From: Desulfobulbaceae bacterium
GTDB taxonomy: Bacteria; Desulfobacterota; Desulfobulbia; Desulfobulbales; Desulfobulbaceae
Length of the DNA: 51,167 nucleotides
Assembly (NCBI GenBank): GCA_023544645.1
Contig: JAMJFO010000020.1
Location: 1-51,167, forward strand
Direction of reading: 5' to 3'
Shown here one piece after another: positions 39,054-50,176 of this stretch (the first letter of the stretch is position 1; every line of letters starts with the position of its first letter). The notes below the pieces were generated by a model, which searched no databases, had not been told where the DNA came from, and was given only the letters and a program-made list of their open reading frames with translations. Position numbers and translations under genes: made by a program.

Positions 39054-40328
39054 TCAATGCACCGAGCATGATATACAGGGATCATAGGAACGTACCAGCA
39101 TCTCCGCCAGCAGTTCGATATCGCGATCGGCAAAACCGTTGGCAGCATACTGCCGCGCCAGTTCCTCAATATCATGGTGGATATTGGCATTGTTCTGGCT
39201 GGTGGGAATGACGCAGTCGCATTTCTTCATGCGGCCGTCATGATCAAATTCATAGCAATGGTAAAGGATGCCACGCGGCACTTCCACCGCGCCGACGCCG
39301 ATGCCGGCCCGCAGGGTCACCTTTTCCCTTTCCGGCTGCCAGTCACGATCCAGCAGTCCCTTGATAAGTTCCTGGGACTCCATCACCACCTGCACACACT
39401 CTACCAGTTGGGCGATGTTGTTCATGAACGGGTTGTGACTGACTGCGGTCAACCCCAGTTCATCAGCCACCTTTTTCGCCTCCGGATAGAGGAAACAATG
39501 GTTGTTATTGAAGCGCGCCAGGGCGCCGACGGCGAACGATCGACGCGACAGGCGGCTCAACTTGGAGGTATTGGTCTCACTGACATATTCATTGGTCATC
39601 AGGCGGTACTCCTCTTCCTGGCGGTATACGCCGTCGCTGGAGATGAGACTGCCCCCGATAAAGGGATAAACGCCATCGCCCCGCAGGGAGACGAATTCGG
39701 TCTCCCGGACAAAATCCGGAAGTGCGAAGGTTTTGAACAGCTCAGCCGTGGTCTGCAGATCTTTGGCCACCTCCTGCAGTCGCACCAGCAGGCCTTCGAG
39801 CTCCTCTTTTTTCGGTAGCATGGTAAAACCGCCCACCACGGTGCGTACTGGATGCAGCCGGCGGCCGCCGATAATATCGCAGGCATCGTTAGCCAATAGT
39901 TTTATACCGGCCGCCATTTTTACCACATCGGGATGAGTCTCAATCAAGGGAAAGACACTACCGGTACCGAGAAAATCCGGCGCTGCCAGGAAAAAAAGAT
40001 GGAGCACATGGCTTTGCAGGGTCTCCATATGCTTAAGCAGCAATCTGAGATCCCGGGTCTGGCGCGACGGCACCATGCCAAATGCGTTTTCCACCGCCCT
40101 GATGCTGGTCAGGGTATGGCCGATGGAGCAGATGCCACAGATGCGGCCGCAGATGACCGGCGCGTTCTCCCAATGCTTGCCGACCAGCATGGCCTCGAAA
40201 AACCGCGGCGTTTCCACCACCTGCCAGTGGGCTTGCCTCACCTGACCATCCTCGATGCGAATGGCGATATTGCCATGGCCCTCCACCCGGCTCAGATGTT
40301 TCACATCTACATTACATGATACTTTCAT
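39054..40328 (-). CDS. hydA: [NiFe] hydrogenase large (alpha) subunit, group 3b type
   Basis: 424 aa. Catalytic subunit of a soluble, bidirectional NAD(P)-linked hydrogenase (sulfhydrogenase type). N-terminal nickel ligands are in RICGICSIGHTL (C64, C67) and C-terminal ligands in DPCISCSVH (C418, C421). The protein ends exactly at this histidine. Related enzymes usually carry a short extension that a specific protease removes, so this subunit seems to be made already in its mature form. HydB/HydG-type genes upstream define the group. No hyp maturation genes or endopeptidase are in the window, so they must be elsewhere. The stop lies next to a transposase remnant. Confidence 0.93.
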   Translation of the reverse strand: MKVSCNVDVKHLSRVEGHGNIAIRIEDGQVRQAHWQVVETPRFFEAMLVGKHWENAPVICGRICGICSIGHTLTSIRAVENAFGMVPSRQTRDLRLLLKHMETLQSHVLHLFFLAAPDFLGTGSVFPLIETHPDVVKMAAGIKLLANDACDIIGGRRLHPVRTVVGGFTMLPKKEELEGLLVRLQEVAKDLQTTAELFKTFALPDFVRETEFVSLRGDGVYPFIGGSLISSDGVYRQEEEYRLMTNEYVSETNTSKLSRLSRRSFAVGALARFNNNHCFLYPEAKKVADELGLTAVSHNPFMNNIAQLVECVQVVMESQELIKGLLDRDWQPEREKVTLRAGIGVGAVEVPRGILYHCYEFDHDGRMKKCDCVIPTSQNNANIHHDIEELARQYAANGFADRDIELLAEMLVRSYDPCISCSVH

Positions 40329-40359
40329 TGCTTATCTACCCTATCCTCTAAAGGCGTTA

Positions 40360-41133
40360 TCATCGTTCAATTAAATGGTCGAAACCGCCGAAACACTCCA
40401 GCCGGTCGAGCATCCTTTCACGGCTGAAATTATGCTGCCGCATGATCTTCTGCCATTGCGCCACATTGGCGTCCTCGGCCGGACCTCGGCAACCCCAGCA
40501 GCCGAAGCGGTTATTGGTGCACCAGGAATTGCAGCCGGCCCGGGTTATCGGCCCTAGGCACGGTTCACCGATATCAAACAGGCAGATGTTGCCGTTGGCC
40601 TTGCACTCCATGCACACCGGATATTTGGGTAGATTTACTGCTTTGCCCAAAGCGACGTTCAGGACGATTTTTTCGACCTCCTCCTTCTTCACCGGGCAAC
40701 CGTAAATATGCAGATCAACTTTGACATATTTTTCCAGCGGCATGGCTTCTTTGGTATCCACCGGACAGTCGCCGTAAACCTCTTTTTTGACCCAGTCGAG
40801 ATCGTTGAACCGGTTTTTCAATTGATTGACTCCGCCGAAACAGGCACAGGAGCCAAAGGCTACCAGAATTTTGGCATTTTTGCGGATCTCCTGTAAACGG
40901 CGCACCTCATCTTCCCGGGTGACACTGCCCTCGACAAAGGCGATTTCATAATCGTTGCTTTTTTCCGTCATCGCCTCCCGGAAATTGACCACCTCGACCA
41001 GGGACAAAAAGTCGAGCAGGTTGGCCTCATTGTTGACTACCTGCAACTGACAGCCTTCGCAGGAGGTAAAATCAAAAAACGCCACTTTCGGTCTATAAAG
41101 CGGCACACCAAGATATGTAGTTGTCACAGCCAT
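40360..41133 (-). CDS. hydD: [NiFe] hydrogenase small (delta) subunit, group 3b type
   Basis: 257 aa from ATG 41133, two bases after the gamma-subunit stop; the open frame continues upstream inside that gene but is not needed. Carries the Fe-S relay between the active site and the flavin subunit. Proximal cluster ligands include FDFTSCEGCQLQ (C25, C28), GSCACFGG and IYGCPV. Two further clusters are suggested by CMECKANGNICLF and the cysteine-rich CNSWCTNNRFGCWGCRG. No Tat signal, consistent with a cytoplasmic enzyme. Confidence 0.92.
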   Translation of the reverse strand: MAVTTTYLGVPLYRPKVAFFDFTSCEGCQLQVVNNEANLLDFLSLVEVVNFREAMTEKSNDYEIAFVEGSVTREDEVRRLQEIRKNAKILVAFGSCACFGGVNQLKNRFNDLDWVKKEVYGDCPVDTKEAMPLEKYVKVDLHIYGCPVKKEEVEKIVLNVALGKAVNLPKYPVCMECKANGNICLFDIGEPCLGPITRAGCNSWCTNNRFGCWGCRGPAEDANVAQWQKIMRQHNFSRERMLDRLECFGGFDHLIER

Positions 41134-41135
41134 GA

Positions 41136-42041
41136 TCAAATAGCCTCCTTCAGATTCATAACCGACCAGTAGTCGAAAACCGGTCCGTCCAGACAGGTAT
41201 AGGTGGAACCGATATTGCATCGGCAGCATTTTCCTCGGCCGCAATGCATGCGCCGCTCCAGGGAGACGAAGATCTTGCGGGCCGGCACTCCGGCCTCGAT
41301 CAGCAGCTTACAGACAAATTTATACATCACCGGCGGACCGCAGACGATGGCGTAGCTGTTGGTCGAAAAAGCGGGGCCGGCTCCGGCAATCCTGGCCGCC
41401 AGCGGCTTAGTGATCAGTCCGGTGTCGCCCTGCCAGGTTTCGTCGGCCTGATCGACAATGATGTTCAGTGAGATATCGAACTTTTTCCACATCTCATATT
41501 CATAGGTATAGAGCAGTTCCCTTGGTTTTTTGGCGCCATAGATGATGTCCACCTTGCGGTAACGGCTTCTATTTTCCAGTACTGACAGGATCGGCGCCCG
41601 CAGCGGCACAATTCCCAGACCGCCGGCAATCAGCAGAATATTCTGGCCCACCATGTCTTCGATGGGAAAACTGCTGCCAAATGGACCACTGATGCCGACC
41701 CGCATGCCCAATTTGACCTGCGAGAGAAAATTGGTCAGGTTGCCGATATGGCGAATGCAGAGATCGAAAACCCCTTTGCGCACCGATGACGATGAGATGG
41801 AAAAGGGGGCCTCGCCGATGCCTGGTACCTCAAACATGACAAACTGCCCCGGTTTAAAGGAAAAGGAGTTTCTCTCCTCTTCATCACGAATTTTGATCTG
41901 ATAGAGCCGCTCATTCTCGGTCATCGGATAAATATTTGTTATCTCAGCCGGATAACTGTATTCAAAGGCCTTGAGTCCATGGGCTGGCCGCTGCAGGTTT
42001 TTCTCTTTGAGAATATTGACGAATTTCAGTTTTTGTTCCAT
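41136..42041 (-). CDS. hydG: Hydrogenase gamma subunit, FAD/NAD(P)- and 2Fe-2S-binding
   Basis: 301 aa. Diaphorase-like subunit (related to AsrB of anaerobic sulfite reductase) that exchanges electrons with NAD(P). An FAD domain is followed by the nucleotide domain with NILLIAGGLGIVPLRAPILS, and the C-terminus holds a 2Fe-2S centre (MHCGRGKCCRCN with a later cysteine in YTCLDG). Coenzyme preference cannot be read from the sequence by eye. Tight packing with the small subunit (two bases) shows one operon. Confidence 0.9.
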   Translation of the reverse strand: MEQKLKFVNILKEKNLQRPAHGLKAFEYSYPAEITNIYPMTENERLYQIKIRDEEERNSFSFKPGQFVMFEVPGIGEAPFSISSSSVRKGVFDLCIRHIGNLTNFLSQVKLGMRVGISGPFGSSFPIEDMVGQNILLIAGGLGIVPLRAPILSVLENRSRYRKVDIIYGAKKPRELLYTYEYEMWKKFDISLNIIVDQADETWQGDTGLITKPLAARIAGAGPAFSTNSYAIVCGPPVMYKFVCKLLIEAGVPARKIFVSLERRMHCGRGKCCRCNIGSTYTCLDGPVFDYWSVMNLKEAI

Positions 42042-42100
42042 CGTATAAACCTTAAACAGTAGATAATATCTGTCATCTTAACAGGACAGGCACTATTTGT

Positions 42101-43141
42101 TTAAATCTTTTCCTGACGAACGCTGGCTATCACTTCCGGCACGTTGATATCGGCCAGGCAGGCTTGTCCACAACGGCCGCAGCCGACGCACAGGGATTCC
42201 TCAAAAGCCTCGACAAAACCGCGATGCTTGTGATAGTAGCGGTACTTTAACCGGGTATGGCTCTCCGGCCGGAAATTATGGCCGCCGGCCACCTCGGCAA
42301 AGTCGATGAGATTGCAGGAGTAACTGTGCTTGTTTTTCCTGGCGTTTTTCAGATCGAGATCAACCTCTTCTTCCACCCCGTAGCAGTAACAGGTGGGGCA
42401 GACATTGGCACAGGTGCCGCAGGAGAGGCACCTGTCGCCCCACTCCTGCCAAACCGGCGACTGGAATTCCATATCCAGAATTTTGGTCAGATCGGTGGTG
42501 TCAACGCTGGCAATGAATTTATCGGCCTTCTCATTGGTTTTTTGCAGGAACAGCTGGTGATCCTGTGGGGCCGGATCCTGAATATCCAGCTGCTGCAGGA
42601 TCTCATAGGCGGTGGCCGTATTGATCTCAATGAAATAGCGGTCCCCCAGATCGGTCAAAAAAAGATCAAAGCCGTGCAGCACCGTGTCGGTGTCCATGGA
42701 GCGGCAGAAGCACCAGGGCTGCGGCTGGCAATCGACGCCGATGATAAAGATGTTTTTTCTTTTGGCGGCATAGTAGGGGGTGGGGTAGACGCCTTCCAGC
42801 AGCACCTTGTCCAATTTATTAAAAGCATTGATATCGCAAGGGTGCAGGCCGAACATGACAATGGGCTCATTGATATTGTAATCGACCTTCTTATGCCAGG
42901 AATCTTTAAAGATTTTAAAGGTGCAAAGGGTTTCGGTAAAAGGCAGAAAATACTTTTTGGCCGAGTGCTTGGTAGTGTCATAATCGAGGCACAGGTCGGC
43001 AAATTTATCGACCCGGTCGAAATCGTACATGGCCTTATTATTCTTGTCCAAACCTTTACGGACCGGACCAACAATCAGGTGCTGCGCCAATTTGGCATAA
43101 AGATTGGCCAATTCGTCCCTTTTAATTGTTTTAAATATCAT
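42101..43141 (-). CDS. hydB: Hydrogenase beta subunit, 4Fe-4S protein
   Basis: 346 aa. Electron-transfer subunit related to AsrA of anaerobic sulfite reductase. Two ferredoxin-like motifs lie in the C-terminal part: CLSCGTCANVCPTCYC and CVGCGRCGQACLADINVP. The N-terminal domain has the family's MFGLHPCDINAF. First gene of the four-gene hydrogenase operon (beta-gamma-delta-alpha, the order of the archaeal sulfhydrogenase). The upstream DNA (43142-43317) shows tandem GGTGATAA copies (43209-43224) and no clear sigma70 promoter. Confidence 0.92.
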   Translation of the reverse strand: MIFKTIKRDELANLYAKLAQHLIVGPVRKGLDKNNKAMYDFDRVDKFADLCLDYDTTKHSAKKYFLPFTETLCTFKIFKDSWHKKVDYNINEPIVMFGLHPCDINAFNKLDKVLLEGVYPTPYYAAKRKNIFIIGVDCQPQPWCFCRSMDTDTVLHGFDLFLTDLGDRYFIEINTATAYEILQQLDIQDPAPQDHQLFLQKTNEKADKFIASVDTTDLTKILDMEFQSPVWQEWGDRCLSCGTCANVCPTCYCYGVEEEVDLDLKNARKNKHSYSCNLIDFAEVAGGHNFRPESHTRLKYRYYHKHRGFVEAFEESLCVGCGRCGQACLADINVPEVIASVRQEKI

Positions 43142-44696: not shown

Positions 44697-47309
44697 CTAT
44701 ATGGCGGCAAGAAAGGCTACGCCCAACCCGAGAACTGTCAGCAGCGGCAGGGCGAGGTGACGAAGAGGCAGGTCCCCGCCTTCCAGGCGCAGGCATATTT
44801 TGTACGTGGCATAGCCGGAGGCGACCATGCCGCCGAGAATGACAATATGCAGCAGGGTCGAGCTGGCGCCGGGGCTCAGCAGCCGAAACTCCTTCAGGGC
44901 GATCTCCATGCCGGCAAGGTGCAGGATATTGGGCACAATCTGCCACGCCCTGCCGATGAACATATCCGTATAATAGGCGAGATAGCCGCCAAGCACCAGC
45001 GGCAGAAAACCATATCCGAATACGGTTGCGGCCTTTGCCGTTTTCTTGCCCATAATGGCTGACTGCAGAAAACTGAACAGCATATAGGCGCCCCAGCCCA
45101 CTCCAATACCCGTCCAGAACAAGAAAGTTCCGGCCGTAACGGTCCCGGCGTCCGGACCACCCGGCAGCGCCCTCCCCCACTGCTCAGCAACGCTGAGAAA
45201 TCCGTCATGGAACACCAGGAGGAAAAAAATCACTCCCAGGGAGATGATCAGAAAATTGTCCGACAGCTTGGCATTCTGCAACGACCAGAGCTCCCGGGGC
45301 GCCAGGCGGAGATTAAGCTCGATGGACCGCAGGCCGCAGTTGCGGATGCAATTGCCGCATAAAATACAGTCCTTGTTGTTGTCCACCAGGAAAGGATGCC
45401 GGAACATCGGGCAGCCGGACGAAGTGGCGGTATCACGGAAGCAGACATAATCCCGGCACTGGTTCAGGCACATTTCCCGGTTGGCCCGGAGTTCAAGGAT
45501 GGAAGGCATGGAAAAAACAGCATTGAGCGCTCCCAGAGGGCAGACATAACGGCACCAGGTATAGCGCTCAAAAAATATACTGAACAGCAGGGCCCCGGCG
45601 GCAATGGCCAGGAGAATCCCCCCGGTGAGCATGGGACTGTCATACGCGTTGAAGACGATTTCGGCCCAGAACACGACCAGACAGAGAAGCGCCGTGATCC
45701 AGCCCGAATGTCTGGCAATAGCGGCAGGGAGGCGCCGGGTGGGATGAAGCATTTTCTGCAGCTGCTTGCCGGGTGCAGACAACGCACAGATACTGCACCA
45801 GTAGCGCGGCAGGAAGAAAAACGAAATAATAAGCAGCGGCCAGCCGATATACCAGCACAGGGTTATGCCGAGATTCTTCTCCGCCTCCTGCGGGCCGAAA
45901 AAGAGATTGAGCAAGACAATGCCGAAGAACACAGAGGTGGTCAGGGTGGCCCTCTGCATCCACCTGCCTTTGAACACTCGCCTGACCACCGGCAGCTGCA
46001 GGAGGTTGAAGGATAAACGCTCCCTGCTTCCGGACAGTCCGAGAAAGATATGTTCGGCAAGGATCCGGTCTCCGGTGGAGACCATGACCGCCCGCTGAAC
46101 GACATTGGACAGCTCGGTCAGATTGCCCGGCCAATCGTACTTCATCAGCATCCCCAGGGCATCGGAGGAAATATCCCGCACCTGCTTGCCCAGCTCGCGG
46201 TTGTAGCGCCTCAGGTAATAATGAACCAGGGGCAGGATATCCTGTTTGTGCTCTCGAAGCGGCGGCAACGGGAACTGATGACCGGAAAAAAGGGCCCTCA
46301 GCCCGGGAATGAAAAAAGGCTCTCCGGTCTCGGCACAGGTCGTGCCATCGGCAATAAAAATGAAACGCGTATCCAGGTCCTGTTCAACATCACTGTCCAT
46401 AATGGAAAATTTTTTACTGCGACAGGCATAGAACAGCATCTGCTGCAATTCCCAGCTTATCTTTTCCGCGTGACAGAGGACAAGCGTCCCGTTATGCACC
46501 TGCTCCAGGATGCCAAGCTGCCGGCCCGATGAAAATGGGAAGGAATCCTGTTTGTATCCGAAAAGCTTCCCTTCCCAGATCCATGATTTGAACTGCCGCA
46601 TGTCCAGCTCTATATACGGCTGTGCTCTCCGGGCGCTGTGGAGATGGATCTGCTTGGCCGCCAGCCGGCGTCCGGTTCCCGGTTCGCCGCAGATGAGCAC
46701 CGGCGAATCAAGCCCGGCAAAAAGATCGATCTTGTTCCTGATCTTCCGGGCAAGCTCCATATCCTCCCTGAACCCGTCCGCCCCCTCCCCTTCATCGCTT
46801 TGAGAAATTTGCGGGCGCGGAGCAGCGCCGTCCCTGCCCGGGGAAACAACACCAGCAAAGCCCCGCTCCGCGGAGTAGGCGCCGGATTCCAGCATCTCTC
46901 TGGAAGCGAGGCTCAGTCTTTCCGCCAACGCCTTGTCAAGACGCTCATGGATACGGGGATTTGCCAACAGGACGGTTTTAAAGGCCCGGGCGTCAAAGAC
47001 CAGCAACCGGGTCCGGGTCTGGGCCCTGACATGCAGCGACCTCGGTTTGCCGGTCAGGAGCGCAAGTTCTCCAAAATGGCCGCCCGCGCTGATCTGTTCG
47101 GCAATACAGTAAAAATCGCCATGCTTTTCGACAATGAGCTGCACCTTGCCTTCAGCGATAACGAAAAAATCCGTCCCTTTATCCCCTTTATGATAGACAA
47201 ACTCATGGGGCTCGATGATCTTTTCCCGCGCCCATTGGGCTGCTGTCTCCAGTTCATGAATGGGCAGGTCCTGGAAAAGGTAGGCTTGCTGCAGGTAATT
47301 TATAAGCAT
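44697..47309 (-). CDS. Cyclic-nucleotide-binding / degenerate sigma54 AAA+ / polyferredoxin membrane fusion protein
   Basis: 870 aa. Domain 1 (about 1-135) is a CRP-like cNMP pocket with GELALLTGKPRSLHVRA, keeping the Gly-Glu and Arg-Ser pair that bind cAMP phosphate. Domain 2 (about 185-430) has the plan of a sigma54 activator (LFG, PPLREHKQDI, YDWPGNLTEL), but Walker A is GEPGTGRR without GK[ST], Walker B is LVLCHAEK instead of DE, and the GAFTGA loop is DSFPFS. It is thus unlikely to hydrolyse ATP or contact sigma54. There is no helix-turn-helix. Domain 3 (about 450-870) is NapH/NosR-like with about seven membrane helices, cysteine pairs at 505/508 and 586/590, C614/C618/C623, C633 and a ferredoxin motif at 648/651/654/658. 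It follows the LysE gene by 36 bases. Probably a membrane redox sensor or electron-transfer protein gated by a nucleotide (inference). Confidence 0.85.
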   Translation of the reverse strand: MLINYLQQAYLFQDLPIHELETAAQWAREKIIEPHEFVYHKGDKGTDFFVIAEGKVQLIVEKHGDFYCIAEQISAGGHFGELALLTGKPRSLHVRAQTRTRLLVFDARAFKTVLLANPRIHERLDKALAERLSLASREMLESGAYSAERGFAGVVSPGRDGAAPRPQISQSDEGEGADGFREDMELARKIRNKIDLFAGLDSPVLICGEPGTGRRLAAKQIHLHSARRAQPYIELDMRQFKSWIWEGKLFGYKQDSFPFSSGRQLGILEQVHNGTLVLCHAEKISWELQQMLFYACRSKKFSIMDSDVEQDLDTRFIFIADGTTCAETGEPFFIPGLRALFSGHQFPLPPLREHKQDILPLVHYYLRRYNRELGKQVRDISSDALGMLMKYDWPGNLTELSNVVQRAVMVSTGDRILAEHIFLGLSGSRERLSFNLLQLPVVRRVFKGRWMQRATLTTSVFFGIVLLNLFFGPQEAEKNLGITLCWYIGWPLLIISFFFLPRYWCSICALSAPGKQLQKMLHPTRRLPAAIARHSGWITALLCLVVFWAEIVFNAYDSPMLTGGILLAIAAGALLFSIFFERYTWCRYVCPLGALNAVFSMPSILELRANREMCLNQCRDYVCFRDTATSSGCPMFRHPFLVDNNKDCILCGNCIRNCGLRSIELNLRLAPRELWSLQNAKLSDNFLIISLGVIFFLLVFHDGFLSVAEQWGRALPGGPDAGTVTAGTFLFWTGIGVGWGAYMLFSFLQSAIMGKKTAKAATVFGYGFLPLVLGGYLAYYTDMFIGRAWQIVPNILHLAGMEIALKEFRLLSPGASSTLLHIVILGGMVASGYATYKICLRLEGGDLPLRHLALPLLTVLGLGVAFLAAI

Positions 47310-47345
47310 GGCTTGAGTCGGCGGCGAACTCCGGCTGCAGGAGAT

Positions 47346-47987
47346 TCAGATAAGTTTTTCAATGCCGCTCCAGAAAAAATATCCGGAAAAAACGACAAGG
47401 AAGGCGGCGCACCCTCCAATCAGCCTTCTATACGCAATATCGCTGAAATAATTTCTTCCCCTGGCGACACCGAAGGAAACAAACGCGTACCAGGCCAGAT
47501 CCGCCAGAATATGGCCGGCAAAAAAAGAGGCAACGCCCAGGATGCCGAATTTGACGGACTGCATGATATATCCCAGCCCGATGGATGCCCACCAGATGGT
47601 CCAGTAAGGGTTGGCCAGGCTGAAAACAATCCCGGCAGCAACGAGATTCTGTCGTTTTTCATCCCGGGTATCCAGGTCCAGCCGCAGACCCGGAAGGCTC
47701 CTGAACATGGCAAGGGCCATCCAGAGGAGTATGGCCCCTCCGGCCAGGGCGATGGCGACAAACACATCATCACGCCTGAAAAAAGGCGCCAGGCCGGCCA
47801 GCAGGGCCAGGACCAGGACCAGTTCGAGAATACCGTGGCCCAGGATCATCAACGGTCCGGCGGACGCGCCCCGACGGCTGCTTTCACTGATGGTCACGGT
47901 GAGCAGCGGTCCCGGCATGAGCGCACCGGAAAGGGCGATCACAAAGGACGATGTAAAAATAACCAGCAGGGCAAGCGTCATCGTCAT
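47346..47987 (-). CDS. LysE/RhtB-family exporter
   Basis: 213 aa with six hydrophobic helices. Matches the LysE superfamily (amino acid or metabolite efflux): the N-terminal ALSGALMPGPLLTVTISESS corresponds to the conserved PGP loop after helix 1, and GHGILELVLVLALLAG and SLANPYWTIWWASIGLGY to helices 2 and 4. Substrate unknown. Its promoter appears to be an extended -10 at 48156-48164. It precedes the large fusion gene on the same strand; a functional link is not evident. Confidence 0.85.
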   Translation of the reverse strand: MTMTLALLVIFTSSFVIALSGALMPGPLLTVTISESSRRGASAGPLMILGHGILELVLVLALLAGLAPFFRRDDVFVAIALAGGAILLWMALAMFRSLPGLRLDLDTRDEKRQNLVAAGIVFSLANPYWTIWWASIGLGYIMQSVKFGILGVASFFAGHILADLAWYAFVSFGVARGRNYFSDIAYRRLIGGCAAFLVVFSGYFFWSGIEKLI

Positions 47988-48499: not shown

Positions 48500-50176
48500 C
48501 TATTCCTGAACCTTTTTCAATGCGTCCTGAATGGAAAGGACATAGGGCTGGATATCGCGTAAAAACGGCGGCAGTCCGTTCCTGGCCTGCCGCGCCTCAG
48601 CCATGCTGGAATAGTTGCCGTAGAATACAAAAATAGTCTGGGGAGATATTTTCCGGAGAATATACAACTGGTCTTTGATTGCATAATACCTGTCATCCAC
48701 CAGGATCTTTTTCAGGTTTTCCTCGGCATCCTCCGAGGCGAGCACCATGAGCTGCACTGTGTATCCGCCCCGATACGCCCAGGCAAGCCAACCCGAACTT
48801 GCCCTGAGGCGCTCATTGAAAAGAGCGTCGGCATCCCTGGGCGCTTTCTCTATTTTTTGTTTCTTGGGCTGCAAGACGGATTCAGCCTGAACAGTCTTTT
48901 TCCTCCTGGCCGGCTCAATAATTATTTCGTTGTTTTCGTGGAGTTTTTCCTGCTGTTCAATGGGCCGTATGGCAATGCCCGATTTTGATTCATCTGCCCC
49001 TCCTCCATCGGGCTTCTTGCTGACTGATTCTTCTCCGTCAGGGCCTGTTGTCTCCGGCGCGGCAACATTGGAAGCAGCGGTTTTAGGAGTAACAACATCA
49101 GGAACGTCTGCCTCGGGAACATCAACCTCGGGAACATCAGAGACGGGGGGAATGACTATCTCCTGTTCCGGCATGGAAATTTCCAGCCGCTCTTCACCGA
49201 CGGTTTCCGCCTGCTGCTCGCTTTCGGACGGCCACAGCAGCATCAGGATCACCCAGACAAGCAATGCGCCGGCCAACAGCCACCATTTATTCTCCCTGAG
49301 AAAATCATAACCCTGGAACAATGCCAGCGACATGTTTTCCTCCAATCCCTGGGGCTGCTGGATCAGCTGGTCATCGACCTCGAACATGCCCTGCTGACAG
49401 GCCTTCTTCAACCCCTGCTCGGCAAGGGAGTTCGTCAGGCTGACATTTCCCATGGCAGCCTGATATATCAGGTCCATGGCATCGTCGTGGAAAAGATCAA
49501 GATACTTGTCGCCGGGTACACCCGCTCTCTGCAGCCTGAACTGAATGTACTGCCTTGTTTCCTCCAGGGTGAAAGGTTCAAGGGTATAGCCGGCATTGAT
49601 GTCGACATTTGAACAGTACACCGCCAGCTGGTCCAGGTTGGCATCCAGTTCACGACGGCCGACAAGCAGGATCTGCAGATTCCGGCTCTCCCCGGTGGAA
49701 CAGATCAGCCGGATAAGGCGCTCCTGGGTTGCCAGAAACAGATTTTCCGCTTCGTCGACAATGAGGACAAGATTTCGCCCTTCGGCTTCAATGCGGACAA
49801 GCTGCTCCCGGAAAATCACGGCATAATTTGGCGGATATTCATCTTCGCCATCATCCTCTGCATCACCTGCGCCCAGCTCGGAACAGACAGTTCGCAGAAG
49901 ATTTTCGTAGGAACCGATGGGATGCTCAAGGGAGACGAACCGGCAGTATTCCGGTTTGAGATTTTGTTCCACCAGCCGGCACATCAACGTTTTACCGGTG
50001 CCCTCGCTGCCGGTCAGTTTGACCAGGGGTTGGCCGTTTTCAATATCCGCCAGCAGATTTTCCAGGACCTCTCTTCTGCCCGCGGCCGGAAAAAAAATAT
50101 GCGTATCAGGCTCCTGGCTGAAAGGGGGCCGTTCAAGTTGAAAATGGTCCAGATAGAGTGTAGACGCTATTGTCAC
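48500..50176 (-). CDS. ExeA-like AAA ATPase with membrane segment and SPOR domain
   Basis: 558 aa. An N-terminal ATPase of the ExeA/GspA group (about 1-270) has Walker A TGSEGTGKT and Walker B LVLIVDEAENL. One membrane helix (WWLLAGALLVWVILMLLWP, about 300-318) is followed by a periplasmic linker rich in Pro, Val and Glu (VPEVDVPEADVPDVV) and a C-terminal SPOR domain (about 470-550, YTVQLMVLASEDAEENLKK), which binds denuded glycan at the septum. The layout resembles DamX and ExeA combined. It may link cytoplasmic ATP hydrolysis to peptidoglycan remodelling or secretin assembly. Starts with MTIASTLYLDHFQLERPPFS, typical of ExeA. Confidence 0.88.
   Translation of the reverse strand: MTIASTLYLDHFQLERPPFSQEPDTHIFFPAAGRREVLENLLADIENGQPLVKLTGSEGTGKTLMCRLVEQNLKPEYCRFVSLEHPIGSYENLLRTVCSELGAGDAEDDGEDEYPPNYAVIFREQLVRIEAEGRNLVLIVDEAENLFLATQERLIRLICSTGESRNLQILLVGRRELDANLDQLAVYCSNVDINAGYTLEPFTLEETRQYIQFRLQRAGVPGDKYLDLFHDDAMDLIYQAAMGNVSLTNSLAEQGLKKACQQGMFEVDDQLIQQPQGLEENMSLALFQGYDFLRENKWWLLAGALLVWVILMLLWPSESEQQAETVGEERLEISMPEQEIVIPPVSDVPEVDVPEADVPDVVTPKTAASNVAAPETTGPDGEESVSKKPDGGGADESKSGIAIRPIEQQEKLHENNEIIIEPARRKKTVQAESVLQPKKQKIEKAPRDADALFNERLRASSGWLAWAYRGGYTVQLMVLASEDAEENLKKILVDDRYYAIKDQLYILRKISPQTIFVFYGNYSSMAEARQARNGLPPFLRDIQPYVLSIQDALKKVQE

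Follow-up and report, generated by a model that had tools for sequence, protein, structure and literature searches.

A cyclic-nucleotide sensor, a sigma54-activator AAA+ domain whose motor motifs have been lost, and a membrane polyferredoxin are joined, in that order, within a single protein whose architecture is conserved and phylum-wide; all of its domains, the dead AAA+ domain included, are under strong purifying selection. The gene lies on the minus strand at 44697-47309 of the window (that is, of the whole 51,167-nucleotide stretch of DNA that was analyzed), which belongs to the genome (3.85 Mb in 153 contigs) of a bacterium of the sulfate-reducer type. The best explanation of this protein, to which we would give roughly even chances, is that a sigma54-activator chassis has been made into a membrane electron-transfer protein under signal control, with the AAA+ domain acting as a coupler and not as a motor. 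The architecture suggests, in other words, that a gene-switching machine has been reused to act upon electron flow in place of DNA.

AAA+ domains are normally regarded as motors. If the explanation given here is true, a pseudo-AAA+ domain kept by selection and connecting interchangeable sensors with a membrane redox output would put the enhancer-binding-protein chassis to a new use, and a respiratory-type redox protein would be under second-messenger control--a form of control that, to our knowledge, is poorly known for electron transport in sulfate reducers. A single gene suffices to put the question to a direct test. Automated annotation likely labels such proteins, wrongly, as 'sigma-54 transcriptional regulators'. 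The fused architecture is described nowhere in the literature searched, absence there not being proof.

A conserved three-module fusion

The gene forms a single unbroken frame of 870 codons, within which Pfam models detect a cNMP_binding domain (PF00027; residues 32-115; 61.3 bits versus a cut-off of 27.5), a Sigma54_activat domain (PF00158; residues 187-318; 80.3 bits versus 20.2), an AAA_lid_14 domain (PF25601; residues 352-427; 74.9 bits versus 27) and a Fer4_5 domain (residues 563-600; 29.7 bits versus 22). The same scan detects no DNA-binding domain or helix-turn-helix in the 870-residue protein. A first-pass annotation had placed three modules in one uninterrupted 870-residue frame, and both the open frame and the full-length homologues bear this out; a frame break between the domains, which was sought as counter-evidence, is absent. 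A chimera or frame accident is ruled out, since homologues covering the full length at 41-65% identity turn up in many genomes that were assembled independently. Nor is the fusion a singular event, but rather a conserved family with the same domain order in 68 of the 258 genomes of the order.

The survey covered these 258 genomes together with 395 genomes spread over the phylum. Whole-protein profile matches at E 1e-80 or better, which define the 68 genomes, fall within 23 of 69 genera; at 1e-60 or better about 23 of the 395 phylum genomes match, a few of these matches being partial in length. Two copies are present in several genomes. Conservation is given below over an alignment of 50 family rows, 49 of which are distinct (one organism is represented twice, as L023 and L036). 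One or two in-frame stop codons occur in the homologues L043 (G059:C177), G058:C48 and G064:C8, which are either pseudogenes or the product of errors in the assembly of metagenome-derived genomes.

Within the main clade, mean pairwise identity is highest for the iron-sulfur domain (69%), followed by the AAA+ lid and transmembrane helices (TM) 3-4 (65%), the cNMP domain (48%) and the AAA+ core (42%). Among 14 close pairs, for some of which the synonymous counts are saturated, every domain has a dN/dS well under 1: 0.06-0.19 for the AAA+ core, 0.02-0.09 for the lid and 0.04-0.30 for the cNMP domain. Because this holds for the dead AAA+ domain as well, that domain is a working part of the protein.

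Sensor domain and pseudo-AAA+ domain

The N-terminal domain (residues 8-130; 46920-47288, minus strand) is of the CRP type: it has the beta-roll fold, and its phosphate-binding cassette (GGHFGELALLTGKPRS, residues 76-91; 47037-47084, minus strand) carries the requisite glutamate, arginine and serine, threonine or alanine residues. The AlphaFold model of this domain is confident and superimposes upon cAMP-bound GlxR with a Z of 20.6 and an rmsd of 1.9 over 141 residues. The cassette of the window protein, GELALLTGKPRS, retains E81, R90 and S91, in keeping with the intact look first noted for its pocket. Across the family, E81 is found in 48 of the 50 rows, R90 in 29 and S91 in 33; since the arginine is thus absent from 21 members, a cyclic nucleotide likely binds to the window protein, whereas binding by some other members is doubtful, and this absence weighs against a redox function under ligand control. 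Six class III nucleotidyl cyclase matches above the family cut-off occur in the genome carrying the window, which therefore probably makes a cyclic nucleotide; the most likely ligand would be cAMP.

Further domains are found near the N-terminus in other lineages. An FHA domain precedes the cNMP domain in the divergent members L069 and L071; a GAF-type region lies between the cNMP and AAA+ domains in L061, as scanned, and was assigned to L062 on the basis of its identical length and its grouping with L061; and L016, L017 and L066 have, ahead of the cNMP domain, an extra domain without a Pfam match. (By eye, the N-terminal 80-150 residues of these three resemble the N-terminal domain of type II secretion ATPases.) Given these additional domains and an arginine conserved in only 29 of the 50 rows, control by cyclic nucleotides may apply to only part of the family.

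The pseudo-AAA+ domain (residues 184-348; 46266-46760, minus strand; PF00158, 80.3 bits) has an NtrC1-like fold: its AlphaFold model, which is of fair confidence, finds its best structural matches in NtrC1 (1ny6 and 1ny5) and superimposes upon 1ny6 with a Z of 21.4 and an rmsd of 4.7 over 240 residues. Alignment locates the degenerate functional sites, all on the minus strand: Walker A reads GEPGTGRR, with the lysine replaced by R214 (46665-46688); the GAFTGA loop reads DSFPFS, starting from D255 (46530-46547); and the Walker B acidic pair is replaced by C279-H280 (46470-46475). The arginine-finger positions are occupied by I334 and L340, and the sensor II position by T398. Among the 50 aligned rows, none has the Walker B D-E pair and none a GAFTGA-like loop; the arginine-finger arginines occur in one and in no row, respectively, and the sensor II arginine in two. 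The threonine of GAFTGA is replaced by proline in 31 rows, a change reported to have inactivated B. japonicum NifA (PMC4641369).

By alignment, then, the family as a whole is predicted to have lost hydrolysis and sigma54 contact, but it has not lost the Walker A lysine throughout: this position is K in 39 rows, R in 10 (the window protein included) and T in one. Hence the proposal that all three motifs have been lost holds for the window protein, but its Walker A component does not extend to most homologues; with the lysine in 39 of the 50 rows, much of the family may still bind ATP without hydrolyzing it. In a tree that included seven canonical activator domains from the same genome, those of the family group together as one clade (support 100/100); with only these seven for comparison, the grouping is consistent with a single origin.

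Following the core are the AAA+ lid (residues 349-424; 46038-46265, minus strand; PF25601, 74.9 bits), which at 65% identity is better conserved than the core at 42%, and a juxtamembrane segment (residues 425-453; 45951-46037, minus strand) that is positively charged (seven K or R, one D or E) and in which N435 is near-invariant and L437 invariant.

That the protein is a working, membrane-tethered sigma54 activator, or else a decaying gene, is very improbable. An AAA+ domain scoring above the Pfam cut-off is what such a view has in its favor, but the essential motifs are lost in every homologue inspected and none has a helix-turn-helix (the Pfam scan of 11 proteins detected no member of a helix-turn-helix family), while the strength of selection argues that the gene is not decaying. 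Thus the first-pass conclusion that the protein cannot be a normal sigma54 activator is upheld, inasmuch as the parts for hydrolysis, sigma54 contact and DNA binding are missing both here and in the homologues inspected, among which a search for members with intact Walker motifs and a helix-turn-helix found none.

Membrane iron-sulfur module and its relatives

The remainder of the protein comprises three parts, all on the minus strand: TM1-TM4 (45510-45950), which bear a CX2C motif (C505, C508), a CX3CP motif (C586, C590) and an intramembrane E550; a cytoplasmic iron-sulfur domain (45270-45509) with the pattern C614-X3-C-X4-C-X9-CP followed by C648-X2-C-X2-C-X3-C658; and TM5-TM9 (44700-45269), which include the invariant P770. 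Hydropathy predicts nine plausible membrane helices within residues 454-870; a tenth peak, at 589-607, is unlikely to be a helix because it overlaps the CX3CP motif. C505, C508, E550, C586 and C590 occur in 50 of 50 rows, as do the eight cysteines (C614, C618, C623, C633, C648, C651, C654 and C658) of two predicted [4Fe-4S] clusters; in the pattern of the window protein, the twelve invariant motif cysteines read CX2C, CX3CP, CX3CX4CX9CP and CX2CX2CX3C. R502, R582 and P770 are among other invariant residues. By the charge rule and the helix count, the most positively charged loops and the twelve motif cysteines all face the cytoplasm, where the N-terminal domains must lie as well. A NapH/NosR-like part with ferredoxin cysteines and about seven helices had been described: the cysteines are indeed present, but the plausible helices number nine.

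The NapH/MauN model (TIGR02163) matches residues 448-665 at 46.7 bits, far under its cut-off of 213; the CcoG/FixG/RdxA family is not among the matches listed (25 of the 33 NCBIfam rows); and FMN_bind, the covalent-FMN domain of NosR and RdhC, was not detected by the Pfam scan of the window protein. A profile search of solved structures with the module gave matches only in ferredoxin-like cysteine stretches, and two structure predictions both had unusable confidence in the membrane part (mean pLDDT 53.7 in one of them). NapH, NosR and RdhC have membrane modules with two CX3CP motifs, to which NapH and NosR add two [4Fe-4S] sites, and are proposed to accept electrons from the quinol pool (PMC5928378); it is by analogy to this account that the module of the family is described here as one that would transfer electrons.

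Many genomes of the order have no fusion but encode the C-terminal 430 residues separately, in a stand-alone form of about 450 residues that matches the module along its whole length at about 310 bits; at least six genomes contain both forms. In the 20 contexts read, the stand-alone genes (L104-L123; for example, L104:7977-9329) mostly lie downstream of a gene for an HtrA/DegS-like protease, some of them also near MgtE, with a divergent CNNM/CBS gene. Farther afield in the phylum, the fusion partners of the module are YHS, cytochrome c or cupredoxin/COX2-like domains (L159:7403-9856, L160:6543-8798, L161:6647-8830 and L163:2409-4340). Several of these fusions share a histidine-rich motif, YHLAHNxxHL, in a C-terminal helix; the motif is not in the window protein.

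In a tree of the module, which has several long branches, the large stand-alone clade groups with L016, L017 and L066 and therefore falls inside the fused family; a single clade of all fused modules apart from the stand-alones is rejected (AU test, p 0.0017). Most simply, the module would have fused once to an activator that was dead or dying by then, and the stand-alone lineage would later have shed the cytoplasmic part; two independent fusions are a possible alternative.

This origin, on the tree, of a large clade without any cytoplasmic part from within the fused family bears upon a rival explanation, namely that the protein is a constitutive redox protein whose cNMP and AAA+ domains merely assemble or anchor a complex, without regulation by a ligand. 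The loss of the cNMP arginine in 21 of the 50 rows and the variation at Walker A likewise favor this rival, which we nevertheless regard as unlikely: the window protein retains E81, R90 and S91, the cNMP domain is strongly constrained (dN/dS 0.04-0.30 in the 14 close pairs), and additional sensor types (FHA and GAF) vary by lineage, as sensors do.

Direction of signaling and known systems

A LysE-type exporter gene (PF01810; 47346-47987, minus strand) lies 36 bases upstream and is possibly co-transcribed with the fusion gene; this neighbor and an M28 peptidase are both retained only in L018, the nearest relative with readable flanks. No sigma54 promoter is found near 47310-47420 upstream of the fusion gene, and such matches in the window do not exceed chance (23 versus 28.7 expected). 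Four minus-strand genes at 39054-43141 encode a group-3 type [NiFe] hydrogenase resembling the beta, gamma, delta and alpha subunits of archaeal sulfhydrogenase; a tie to this operon was considered and rejected, as it is not retained beside the homologues. A minus-strand gene at 48500-50176 encodes an AAA_22 protein, by eye ExeA/MshM-like, that is predicted to contain a membrane helix and has a long linker of low complexity; a relative is also found near the homologue in L022. One fused-gene paralogue (family f12) follows hisD-rsmG-leuB-prs in several genomes, coming directly after the ribose-phosphate diphosphokinase gene in L090, L091, L093, L095 and L097; these neighbors were rejected as a functional clue, being housekeeping genes without a redox partner among them. 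Further members of the family occupy unrelated contexts. No redox enzyme is a conserved neighbor in the homologue contexts read, which weighs against the control of a redox process.

This last observation accords with a second rival, in which signaling runs in the reverse direction: the polyferredoxin would sense the quinone pool or the redox poise of the cytoplasm, and the pseudo-AAA+ domain would pass on the reading, for example by entering the rings of genuine sigma54 activators as a subunit that does not function or by sequestering those activators, with the cNMP domain serving to modulate. The genome has more than 30 other sigma54-activator AAA+ matches as possible partners, and purifying selection on a dead AAA+ fold and lid is what one would expect if they formed a surface for protein-protein interaction. 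Yet the protein has lost the arginine fingers and sensor II, whose action is between and within the subunits of a ring; conservation is lower in the catalytic core than in the iron-sulfur domain (42% versus 69%); and the N-terminal domains vary as inputs do, so that the signal points towards the membrane. Reversed signaling is accordingly, in our judgment, an improbable arrangement.

The controlled membrane electron-transfer protein proposed at the outset is favored by the constancy of the redox part while the sensor types (FHA, GAF) differ, and by the fusion of the module elsewhere to electron carriers and metal-binding domains. Its order--sensor, AAA+, output--would be that of an activator in which the DNA-binding output had been swapped for a membrane redox module and the ATPase had died. 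A bound cyclic nucleotide, of which cAMP is the likeliest, would alter the packing of the pseudo-AAA+ domain and lid, and perhaps the oligomeric state; this change would be relayed to the membrane module by way of the lid, itself conserved, and the positively charged juxtamembrane segment; and the relay would open or close electron transfer between the membrane quinone pool and the two predicted cytoplasmic [4Fe-4S] clusters or, alternatively, would govern the docking of a soluble redox partner. Here we infer the direction of signaling, the ligand and the redox partner; that ligand binding controls electron transfer or partner docking is probable. As to cyclic-nucleotide control of a membrane redox protein, which had been proposed as the most economical model, the proposal is plausible: the redox module is the most conserved part and is output-like, as that model would have it, but the cNMP arginine is present in only 29 of the 50 rows, and the signal may instead carry the redox state to the cytosol. 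The broader generalization, in which cNMP, FHA and GAF sensors all act through an ATPase-dead AAA+ coupler upon a quinone/iron-sulfur module, the chassis having moved from the control of transcription to that of electron transfer, is plausible but falls somewhat short of an even chance.

With the NapH, NosR and RdhC polyferredoxins the module shares four helices with two short cysteine motifs and, with NapH and NosR, eight further cysteines downstream. It differs from all three in that its first motif is CX2C (50 of 50 rows) in place of their CX3CP, the second being CX3CP here (586-591), in its first cluster motif, CX3CX4CX9CP, and in its five additional C-terminal helices; and from NosR and RdhC in that no FMN domain was found in the window protein. 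The stand-alone relatives of about 450 residues have the same module, but neither a cytoplasmic sensor nor an AAA+ domain. The fold and the E/R/S phosphate-binding cassette are shared with GlxR and CRP, whereas the domain that comes next is an AAA+ domain and not a winged helix. With the sigma54 activators NtrC1, PspF and FleQ are shared the AAA+ fold and the order of sensor, AAA+ and lid; but the family has lost Walker B, GAFTGA, the arginine fingers and sensor II, and ends in a membrane iron-sulfur module instead of a DNA-binding domain. GAF is a usual input domain of sigma54 activators (PMC4641369), and its presence in some family members is a likeness to the inputs of these activators.
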